Shown: positions 1-42,171 of the stretch, one piece after another | Numbering within the stretch: the first letter of the stretch is position 1 | Layout: every line of letters begins with the position of its first letter | Assembly: GCF_037975445.1 (NCBI RefSeq) | Contig: NZ_CP150254.1 | Span: forward strand, 3,966,001-4,030,000 | Source: Peribacillus sp. FSL P2-0133 | GTDB lineage: Bacteria > Bacillota > Bacilli > Bacillales > DSM-1321 | Length of the DNA stretch: 64,000 nt | Direction: 5' to 3' | The notes under the pieces: generated by a model | Database searches by the model: none | What the model was told of the DNA's origin: nothing | The model's input: only the letters and a program-made list of their open reading frames with translations | Made by a program: the position numbers and the translations under genes

Positions 1-1796
<1,796 letters not shown>

Positions 1797-2507: not shown

Positions 2508-3536
2508 CTATTTTTGATACAGTTTTGTCATCAGGGCCGTTAAATCTTTCGAGAAAAACGAAAGCAAACTGATCACTCTCGAATATTCCATTCTCGTTGG
2601 ACCCAATATGGCCAATGTGCCAACTTGCTCCTGCCCGATTGAGTAGGTTGCCGTAATCAAACTGCAGTCATCGAGCACTGTGTTTTGATTTTCACGGCCG
2701 ATTTTGACGTGGATGCCCGATGGATTTTGGGTAATAAGTTCATAAAATCCCTGTTCCTGCTCAATCATCGATAAAAGCGTGCTTACTTTAGCAATATCAT
2801 GGAACTCCGGCTGCCTCAGCATATTCGTTTTCCCGCCGAAAAATATTTTTTCGGGCTTTGTGTCCGTCAGGGTCTCCGCAAGGTTCGAGACCATCGATCC
2901 ATAGTTATGAATGTGGCGGCTCAATAGAACTGCAACTTCCTTATAGATCTTATCCTTTAGATCAACTAGCGGAACATCGACCAAGCGGGAATTCAATATG
3001 TTCACCATCTTTTCAATTTCGTTTATATCAAAAGAAGGCGGTAAGGAAATCATTCGATTTTCCACATGACCTGTATCCGTAATAATGATGGCTATTGCCG
3101 TTTCAGGACTTAAAGGAATGATCTGAATTTTTTTCAGCTTATGCTCATTCACTTTTGGCCCGAGTACAATCGCCGTATAATTCGTCAGTTCCGAAAGTAT
3201 TTTCGCTGACTTCTGAACGATCTTTTCCAATTCATAAATTCGTTCTACAAAAACGGATTTTAATATCTTCATTTCATTCTTTTTCGGAGCTTGAGGAGAA
3301 AGTAAATGATCCACATAATATCTATACCCTTTTTCAGAAGGGATCCTACCGGAAGAAGTATGGGTTTTTTCTAAAAATCCCATTTCTTCTAGATCAGACA
3401 TTTCGTTGCGAATTGTGGCAGAGCTGAACGTAATTTCATCTTTCTTCGACAAGCTTCGTGACCCGACTGGCTGGGCAGAATGGATGAAATCCTCGATTAT
3501 CACTTGTAGAATCAATAATTGACGATCAGTTAGCAT
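2508..3536 (-). CDS. hrcA: Heat-inducible transcription repressor HrcA
   Basis: Repressor of class I heat-shock genes; binds the CIRCE inverted repeat and needs GroEL for activity. The 342-residue product starts [18 protein letters not shown], the N-terminal winged helix of the family, with a conserved [18 protein letters not shown] recognition region near residues 38-55, and ends in a GAF-like domain (IGPT-type motif [15 protein letters not shown]). Length is normal. First gene of the operon with grpE and dnaK. A CIRCE lies 16 bases upstream of the start, so the gene should be autoregulated. Confidence 0.97.
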
Positions 3537-39821: not shown

Positions 39822-40958
39822 TTATTTATTGGAAATATGCTCTGCCTTTTTGTTATTGTGGTCATCCAAGGTCTTGGAGTAAAGGACTTCCCCTTCAGGT
39901 GTAGCCAAAAAGTACAGATAATCCGTTTTCTCAGGTTTCAGTACCGCATCGATCGATGTCGTTCCGGCATTGGCAATCGGTCCTGGCGGCAGCCCCTTAT
40001 TCTTATACGTATTATAAGGGGATTTCACCTCAAGGTCTTTATAATACACCCTGCTCTTATGTGAACCCTTCGCATACAAAACGGTCGGATCCGTTTGAAG
40101 CGGCATACCTTCCTCAATACGATTGTAAAAGACGGAAGCTATTTTTCCGCGATCGACTTGCGCCGTCGCCTCTTCTTCGACAAGCGAGGCGAAGGTCAGC
40201 ATCTGGTGTACGGAATAATCGTTCTTGTCCATTTGGCTCTCGTAAGCCTGCAATGTTTCTTCGGTTTTCTTCAGCATCTCGATGACGATCGATTCCAGGG
40301 TCGGCTTTTCCTCATAAAAGTCATAAGTAGCCGGGAAAAGGTACCCTTCAAGCGGATATAAAACCTTTTCATTTTCAATTTCTGAGGTCAAGAGCTGCGG
40401 AAATTTCTCTTGCATGGTATTTACGAACTTTTTATCATTCAATTTCTTAAAGACCTTTTTCGGATCTTCACCCGTCTTCACTGCGATGATATCAGCAATT
40501 TGGATAAGCTGCTTTCCTTCAGGAATGGTTATCTTCATTGCAGCTTCCTTCATGAGTTTTCCGGTTTTGATGCTTGTGACGATATCTTCAATTGGCATGG
40601 AAGGTGATAATTTATACTCCCCTGCCTGAAAACCGGATTCATTGCGGAATTTAATATAATATTTGAATACGCGTGCGTCCTTGATTATTCCCTGCTCTTC
40701 AAGCAGCGTTGAAATTCCGTTAACGGAAGAACCGATTGGGATTTTCACTTTCTTGATGGTATCATCATCCGGATCGACTGGTTTCATGGCTGAGTTGATA
40801 TATAAAAAGCCCACAAGACCAACTATCCCAATTAGTAAAATAAGCGAAGCTACCGTAATCATGATGATTTTACGAACCAGCTTGGCTTCTCCTTGCTGTT
40901 CTAACAATTTCATTCGGATATGTTCCTTTTTAGATAAATTTTTATCTTTTTCATCCAT
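39822..40958 (-). CDS. mltG: Endolytic murein transglycosylase MltG (YrrL)
   Basis: Membrane-bound transglycosylase that cuts nascent glycan strands. 378 residues: cytosolic basic head, one membrane helix (about 31-53), a LysM-like region (KIPIGSSVNGISTLLEEQGII) and the YceG catalytic domain, with the conserved ASLVEEEA stretch holding the catalytic Glu. ATG 40958 is preferred because AGGGGG sits seven bases ahead; an ATG two codons earlier is too close. Confidence 0.93.
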   Translation of the reverse strand: MDEKDKNLSKKEHIRMKLLEQQGEAKLVRKIIMITVASLILLIGIVGLVGFLYINSAMKPVDPDDDTIKKVKIPIGSSVNGISTLLEEQGIIKDARVFKYYIKFRNESGFQAGEYKLSPSMPIEDIVTSIKTGKLMKEAAMKITIPEGKQLIQIADIIAVKTGEDPKKVFKKLNDKKFVNTMQEKFPQLLTSEIENEKVLYPLEGYLFPATYDFYEEKPTLESIVIEMLKKTEETLQAYESQMDKNDYSVHQMLTFASLVEEEATAQVDRGKIASVFYNRIEEGMPLQTDPTVLYAKGSHKSRVYYKDLEVKSPYNTYKNKGLPPGPIANAGTTSIDAVLKPEKTDYLYFLATPEGEVLYSKTLDDHNNKKAEHISNK

Positions 40959-41190
40959 TTTCATTCCCCCTGCAAACTCAACACCAACTACAGAATGGTT
41001 TCTTGATGATGCTTTCTCTAATTAATCTTTGCTTCGAACATTATACTAAAATCAACAAATAATTACATGTTTTTTGCAAAACTACATTCATCAATACTCT
41101 ATTTATGGCAAAAATGCACTAGTTTTGTCAATATACAGATGTTATTTTATAGGAAAATAGTGATATCTTTGTCTACAGTCTTTTTATGGC
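40959..41190. other. AT-rich gap upstream of mltG
   Basis: Should hold the mltG promoter; nothing else could be supported. It runs into the first dispersed repeat copy. Confidence 0.5.
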
Positions 41191-41340
41191 TTGTACAATT
41201 TAGTCGTTGATTTCCGCTCCAGGCACTCGCTTTCCGCGGGCGGTCCGGGAGCCTCCTCGGCTTGCGCCTGCGGGGTCTCCCCTAGACGCGCTTTTCCCGC
41301 AGGAGTCTCGCACCTTACTCTCCAATCAACTTTGTTTTAA
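41191..41340 (+). repeat. Dispersed ~150-bp GC-rich repeat, copy 1
   Basis: Starts TTGTACAATTT, then GTTGATTTCC..., and ends CCAATCAACTTTGTTTTAA, so GTTGATT/AATCAAC form terminal inverted repeats. The GC-rich centre (GGCACTCGCTTTCCGCGGGC...CCGCAGGAGTCTCG) contrasts sharply with flanking AT-rich DNA. A second copy lies 330 bases downstream in the same orientation. It encodes no protein, and its features suggest a non-autonomous mobile repeat. Confidence 0.9.
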
Positions 41341-41457
41341 TTATTTACTCAGCTTAAAAAAAATTCCCCCTGCATGTATTAGGCATTTCAGGAAATGAAA
41401 GGAATATTCATACAGGAATGGTATTATTAATTAATGATATAGAAAGGTGTGAAGGAG

Positions 41458-41613
41458 TTGGATAATTCTTATTTTGTAGGTTGGGGGACATTGGCACTCA
41501 TAAACGCCGGACTTGCTCAAGGTAAAAATAGAACGGCGTTGAATTGGTTCTTGTTATCATTATTTTTAGGTCCACTCGCTACATTTATACTTTTATTCGC
41601 AGAGAAAAGATAA
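41458..41613 (+). CDS. 51-aa membrane protein between two repeat copies
   Basis: TTG-started ORF (AAAGG ten bases ahead). The product (MDNSYFVGWGTLALINAGLAQ...) has two hydrophobic segments (about 5-20 and 28-45) split by a short polar turn (GKNRTA). No family recognised. Flanked on both sides by copies of the 150-bp repeat, so it could have been carried in, or it could be the remains of an older locus. Confidence 0.55.
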   Translation: MDNSYFVGWGTLALINAGLAQGKNRTALNWFLLSLFLGPLATFILLFAEKR

Positions 41614-41671
41614 GGCCGTTACTAGTACATAAATGAAAAACCGTCCTTAATGTCTACTGTTTTTTAGGGGT

Positions 41672-41826
41672 TTGTACAATTTGAACGTTGATTTCCTTTC
41701 CAGGCACTCGCTTTCCGCGGGCGGTCCGGGAGCCTCCTCGGCGCCTTTGCGCCTGCGGGGTCTCCGATTGACACGCTTTTCCCGCAGGAGTCTCGTACCT
41801 TCCATTCCAATCAACTTTGTTTTAAA
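41672..41826 (+). repeat. Dispersed ~150-bp GC-rich repeat, copy 2
   Basis: Same orientation as copy 1, with near-identical blocks and small differences (TTTCCAGG for GCTCCAGG, and a four-base insertion in the middle). Terminal GTTGATT/AATCAAC is kept. Confidence 0.9.
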
Positions 41827-41847
41827 ATTTAGATTGAGCCCCTTTTC

Positions 41848-41882
41848 AAAAAAAGAACCGACCTTTAGGGGCCGGTTTTTTT
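41848..41882 (-). terminator. yrzB terminator
   Basis: Minus-strand AACCGGCC...GGTCGGTT hairpin with a long T run, directly after yrzB. Confidence 0.85.
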
Positions 41883-41883
41883 C

Positions 41884-42171
41884 TTATTCTTCTTCTTCTT
41901 CTTGGTCAAGGAATGTATTTAACATTTCTTCGACAAGATCCCATTCTTCTTCTGTTTCGATCGGTGTAAGTTCACCATCTTTATTATCTTCGCTTGGTAC
42001 GAATGATGAAGCGTGGATTTCAATTTCTTCCTCGTCATCTTCTGCAGACATCGGATAGTAAAGTACATAAGATTTGTTGAATTTATCTGAATCGAATGTG
42101 AAAAGGATTTCGCAAAGCTGCTCGTTTCCGTTTTCATCTACTACTGTAATGTTGTTTTCGCCGTGTTCCAT
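41884..42171 (-). CDS. yrzB: YrzB-like protein (DUF1292)
   Basis: 95-residue very acidic cytosolic protein of the DUF1292 family ([21 protein letters not shown]...), ending in a run of Glu. Usual neighbour of ruvX and ireB upstream of alaS-linked genes. Function unknown. Eleven bases after ruvX. Confidence 0.9.

Follow-up and report, generated by a model that had tools for sequence, protein, structure and literature searches.

Repeats beside a small resident gene in Peribacillus are probably fossils of an IS1182-family insertion sequence that appears to duplicate terminator hairpins

We analyzed a 64,000-nt stretch of the Peribacillus sp. FSL P2-0133 chromosome (NZ_CP150254.1, positions 3,966,001 to 4,030,000; hereafter the window), in which two copies of a GC-rich repeat, A and B, flank a small open reading frame (ORF) between an mltG/YceG-like gene and a DUF1292 gene. 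The features of the locus, in window coordinates, are as follows.

39822..40964, minus strand: mltG/YceG-like gene, the left neighbour (Pfam PF02618)
41172..41345, plus strand: copy A, read as a truncated IS1182-type left part with the module (similarity to copy B and to positions 32-210 of the element IS_L136)
41206..41330, plus strand: GC-rich stem-loop module of copy A, GTTGATT...AATCAAC (structure taken from relatives and copy B)
41449..41613, plus strand: conserved ORF of 54 aa from its candidate GTG start, a resident gene
41636..41650, plus strand: AAAAACCGTCCTTAA, what is left of the left-hand copy of the terminator hairpin duplicated at the B site (by comparison with the empty terminator of L042 and with L043 and L048)
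41651..41847, plus strand: copy B, read as a truncated left-end hairpin, the module and a degraded right end, GAGCCCCTTTTC (similarity; IS_L136 positions 34-218)
41687..41815, plus strand: GC-rich stem-loop module of copy B (a row of alignment A2, with structure counts)
41848..41882, no strand assigned: host terminator separating the ORF from the DUF1292 gene, the right copy of the duplicated hairpin (terminator-like; its hairpin is the one seen at the empty L042 site)
41884..42171, minus strand: DUF1292 gene, the right neighbour (Pfam PF06949)

The repeats had been noted in a preliminary description as two copies in direct orientation, and both are indeed present, their similarity spanning about 41170-41345 and 41651-41847. 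The core of copy A, bounded by GTTGATT/AATCAAC, occupies 41206-41330 (125 bp, 64.8% GC) and that of copy B 41687-41815 (129 bp, 61.2% GC). The two cores share 115 of 125 aligned bases, the alignment having 4 gap positions, and, as had been remarked, their GC content of 61-65% is unlike that of the DNA nearby (29-43%). GTTGATT/AATCAAC had also been taken for the terminal sequence of the repeat; it does bound both cores, but it is an inner stem and not a transposon end, since the similarity in relatives continues out to CAGACTGTAGACAAAC and TTTTGTCTACAAACTG. Matches at E<=0.001 were identified at 45 or more places in the home genome (40 of 89 candidates were scored), so the similarity of A to B is beyond chance. 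Of the 41 genomes examined, 32 (the home genome among them) contain the repeat, as do 11 of 17 genera, and it occurs in dozens of copies.

Near-identical copies in five relatives extend on both sides of the repeat and place it between a left end and a transposase gene starting MLSKHDSIQRDQLEMI. The 452-aa product of this gene matched NF033551 (IS1182 family) with 460.2 bits against a cut-off of 270 and contains DDE domains. The module-bearing element of the relatives measured 1744-1755 bp; in general the intact insertion sequence (IS) is about 1.55 kb long, or about 1.74 kb when the GC-rich module lies in its leader. The left end of this IS, CAGACTGTAGACAAAC, belongs to a hairpin that resembles a terminator and carries a T-run, and the right end is TTTTGTCTACAAACTG. 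The comparison established both the family and its ends. The inverted-repeat ends found in relatives (CAGACTGTAGACAAA / TTTGTCTACAAACTG) are degraded or missing in copies A and B, and since both copies lack the outer ends, their membership in the IS family rests on inner similarity: both match the IS past the module, into the arm of the left-end hairpin and the T-run. Copy A keeps the 3' arm of that hairpin, TTTGTCTACAGTC, and has neither a right end nor a target duplication.

In the home genome we found 14 transposase matches, all of them fragments, the best with an E value of 1.4e-23 as against E values of 0 in G006 and G013. No intact transposase was found in the home genome and none lies inside the window element. 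After one overlapping entry was removed (L031 overlaps L001, reducing the list from 31 to 30 distinct home loci), only 7 of the 30 had transposase-derived DNA beside the module. Because so few home loci keep transposase DNA, none of it intact, we regard the home copies as relics, and with only transposase fragments in the genome both window copies are probably immobile today. In G013, pieces of a group II intron RNA (RF02001 and RF01998) adjoin an IS1182-type insertion site (L131, 1-296, minus strand).

Target duplication was assessed at 80 loci from named genomes, of which 7 were dropped when an end was not found. Of the 73 copies with both ends, 68 were flanked by duplications of 19-35 bp, while no duplication appeared when right flanks were permuted among loci (0/1439). 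All 68 duplications fold into hairpins of 6 bp or longer. Taken by itself this is a weak criterion, because shuffled duplications often reach a 6-bp stem as well (1232/3400). Complementarity of the ends is the stronger test, and in 67 of the 68 the two ends complemented each other at 5 or more of 7 positions. At least four T among the six bases after the right copy were seen in 52/68, and at least four A among the six before the left copy in 46/68. Duplication length correlated with the span of the longest stem at only 0.33, and we did not use this value to argue for cutting exactly from foot to foot, because many stems extend beyond the duplication into A/T tracts. The targets look like intrinsic terminators of which the whole hairpin has been duplicated. 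A palindromic target, as reported for IS1272, was found for 68 of the 73 copies, and the B site too lies in a terminator. Deletion of the hairpin with no duplication, likewise reported for IS1272, was not seen in these 68 copies; there the whole hairpin is duplicated.

The two window sites were then compared with the same locus in relatives. The B site is empty in four of them (L042, L046, L049 and L050), where the 65-69 bp from the ORF to the DUF1292 gene hold the terminator alone, which is terminator-like in L042. In the window the order at this site is AAAAACCGTCCTTAA, element sequence, the degraded GAGCCCCTTTTC and then the complete terminator. In L043 and L048 the insertions are more decayed, and each lies between two copies of this hairpin. 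The B-site terminator is thereby documented in both the occupied and the empty state, and copy B most likely entered by an IS-type insertion with hairpin duplication. Copy A lies at GATATC^TTATTTC, a site that is empty in L042 and L043; hairpin target, hairpin duplication and outer ends are all absent there. Of the empty sites and target duplications that the preliminary description had suggested looking for, both are found at B, whereas the A site is empty in relatives but has no duplication.

Short elements of 221-245 bp, with the module between both IS1182-type ends, occurred seven times among the fetched loci, six of them solo (the solo count omits L113, which is located inside a full IS). 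These solo elements are short and non-autonomous with the inverted-repeat ends of a known IS, whereas the window copies have no outer ends. Two of the six passed the strict duplication test, L010 in the home genome (31 bp) and L198 in G034 (18 bp); L022 had a 15-bp repeat under a looser test, and L191 a diverged hairpin pair by eye. L010 and L198 thus have the traits of a MITE, namely both inverted-repeat ends and a target duplication with no gene. At the home loci L010, L019 and L002, short or internally deleted elements are flanked by duplicated hairpins. The term MITE-like, used earlier for the window repeats, comes close in that the copies appear to derive from decayed or non-autonomous IS1182-family elements, but the intact ends are missing and A has no duplication. 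Two further arrangements were observed in the home genome. Three modules about 182 bp apart on the same strand form a tandem array at G000:C1:4070579-4071056 (L011, L014), and L003, L004 and L012 have a common extra tail (ACCATACYYGAGRAGTTGAAG...) before the IS1182-type right end or its remnant, possibly representing a second family of short elements.

Taking these comparisons together, we consider it very probable that A and B are the fossil remains of an IS of the IS1182 family and of short, non-autonomous elements derived from it, and that the hairpins of intrinsic terminators are the target of the intact IS, each hairpin becoming duplicated in full on both sides. The transposase would recognise an extruded hairpin, or the symmetry of the hairpin, and the element would join at opposite feet of the dyad; repair would then duplicate the palindrome. 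The left-end hairpin of the IS with its T-run may replace the terminator that has been parted from its own T-run, and because this hairpin would stand in for the terminator, the host gene would still terminate. Loss of the transposase gene would leave elements of 220-245 bp, mobile as long as transposase is supplied, and later deletions in the adjoining hairpins would truncate them. Copy A, truncated and with no target duplication, may have arrived by this or by another route.

A 24-sequence alignment supports a long bulged stem-loop for the module, in which 93.0% of the cells are paired under the RNAalifold structure, against at most 54.9% in slid controls. A first hand-drawn structure fitted poorly (68.7% paired), and the RNAalifold structure was taken instead. 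Alignments A2 and A3 omit 8 of 28 representative rows (L014, L038, L013, both L051 rows, L173, L164 and L033) and have L252, L240, L267 and window copy B added. In 12 of 28 pairs both sides have changed, and none of 500 shuffles scored as high. No Rfam RNA matched the window stretch at gathering score or the module in nine module-bearing loci, and phage records gave no match. Near a module in G038 (L174) two Bacillaceae-1 RNAs (RF01690) were found, at 1695-1762 and 2023-2090. A partial module-like stretch lies between gnd and a hypothetical gene on the plasmids NZ_CP069398.1 (L287) and NZ_CP028214.1 (L288); the pgi-hyp-gnd-zwf gene set around it is common to Priestia megaterium and Bacillus subtilis plasmids, and Paenibacillus urinalis plasmids gave equal matches.

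On a tree of 49 transposases (31 of the 80 loci were dropped, 5 as short and 26 as duplicate proteins), module-bearing IS1182-type copies are interspersed with module-free ones. The label for absence of the module needs 7 changes, gains or losses alike, and at least 6 of these changes are forced by well-supported branches. The leader is about 90 bp long without the module and about 240-285 bp with it. The module occupies one of two places in the leader, directly behind the left-end T-run or directly ahead of the ribosome-binding site. Among the 80 loci, all 38 modules found in leaders were in the orientation of the transposase gene, although few lineages are represented. An IS1182-type copy in Sporosarcina luteola (L256) has two modules, one in the leader (1341-1467, plus strand) and one inverted near the right end (2891-3016, minus strand).

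The covariation, the low pairing of the slid controls and the shared orientation of the leader copies would also suit a module that functions in regulation, as RNA or as DNA, and is kept by selection, with its mobility incidental. We hold this to be rather unlikely. The opposite strand folds about equally well, and neither the counts of G·U versus A·C nor the covariation favours one strand; the promoter-like site in L131 is located after the module; copies decay at the window locus; and many related IS copies do without the module.

Modules are also framed by ends of other kinds. In G028, 10 of 13 GCTNTGTTAAACTT sites lie 5-6 bp before a module in a fixed orientation, and no IS1182 match was found in that genome, which shows that the module occurs in elements whose ends differ from those of the IS as well. 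Five sites in G027 with GGCTCTGTTAAAC-type ends are short elements or single ends, and by eye no transposase for such elements was recognised among the ORFs at these sites. In three loci of G027 (L183, L190 and L197) the modules are, judged by eye, bracketed by a further pair of ends, approximately GGCTNTTTTCG...TTGTTGCTATTT and the inverse of this. It is conceivable, if doubtful, that the window copies, A above all, came from small module-bearing elements with GGCTCTGTTAAAC-type ends rather than from the IS1182-type IS. The GCTNTGTTAAACTT sites of G028 point in this direction, as does the Peribacillus sequence just left of the module, which by eye faintly resembles that end; on the other hand, the match of A and B to the IS beyond the module and the position of B inside a duplicated terminator argue for the IS1182-type origin.

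From the same observations we tentatively put forward a wider proposal, which we hold possible but less likely than not. The module, of about 129 bp, would be an undescribed covarying stem-loop that is a part common to unrelated Bacillales mobile elements. IS1182-type leaders would have gained it repeatedly, at either of two positions but never against the orientation of the transposase gene, and small elements with GCTCTGTTAAAC-type ends would consist mainly of it. Carriers may profit from the module, which could insulate the transposase gene, regulate it or offer a structured DNA substrate, and insertion of the carrier IS would be measured by structure, duplicating whole terminators and sparing host termination.

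REP/BIME-like repeats mobilised by a Y1 (RAYT) transposase are likewise palindromic, intergenic and high in copy number, but this origin is hardly credible here: a Y1_Tnp (PF01797) match is absent from the home genome and from most module-rich congeners (e.g. G001, G004, G006, G008, G011 and G013), the repeat-free G003, G012 and G019 do have one, and the ends and duplications are those of the IS1182-type IS.

The direct repeats on both sides of the ORF had suggested a composite movable unit, in which the two repeats would serve as ends and carry the intervening ORF along. The ORF encodes 54 aa from a GTG at 41449, or about 51 aa from an internal TTG, and had no Pfam or NCBIfam match. Of 41 genomes, 16 (the home genome among them) contain a relative, always as a single copy, set against dozens of copies of the repeat; the ORF does not travel with the repeats. 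At 12 loci, home included, it is surrounded by YceG-like (mltG), DUF1292 and RuvX-like genes (the synteny count leaves out L052 and L054-L056, at a contig end or a different locus). No repeat match was present at this locus in 7 of the 11 syntenic relatives (L041, L042, L045, L046, L047, L049 and L050); L048 has a 25-bp match alone, and L043, L051 and L053 have at least one copy. A composite unit is refuted, with next to no probability left to it, since the ORF keeps its mltG-ORF-DUF1292 locus in relatives that have neither repeat. The other earlier suggestion, a pair of independent insertions, gained support from the close relative L043, which has a B-site insertion but an empty A site. On this comparative evidence the ORF is independent of the repeats, an ordinary resident gene and not their cargo.

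The bcr1 repeats are intergenic, stem-loop forming, high in copy number and about 150 bp long. The window repeat is like them by this description alone, and we claim no kinship. They are named in PMC2267715 as repeats of the Bacillus cereus group, and the accessible parts of PMC2267715 and PMC9208149 contain nothing further on hairpin targeting by the IS1182 family. In the literature outside most subscription journals, ISfinder and TnPedia we found neither an account of whole-terminator duplication by IS1182 elements nor a description of the module sequence. A covarying module that is absent from Rfam and common to elements with different ends raises the testable question of what role a structured passenger plays for its carriers. 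With a clade that duplicates an entire hairpin (19-35 bp), nature provides a way to test whether target joining by a DDE transposase is guided by structure, and a hint of how the spread of an IS could leave the ends of genes unharmed.

The closest known systems are IS1272 and TnSha1 of staphylococci, which have a transposase of the same family and, as far as the available text of the reports goes, likewise target stem-loops or terminators with no primary sequence consensus. IS1272, itself of the IS1182 family, is described as removing the hairpin with no target duplication (PMC5678879, PMC4923244), and PMC5678879 cites a review according to which some members of the family target palindromes. 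The difference is that IS1272 is reported to delete or replace the hairpin, whereas the present clade duplicates it whole. PMC5678879, in the part available, sketches duplication of the whole stem-loop as an alternative pathway and gives no example; it is this pathway that the present clade appears to follow.
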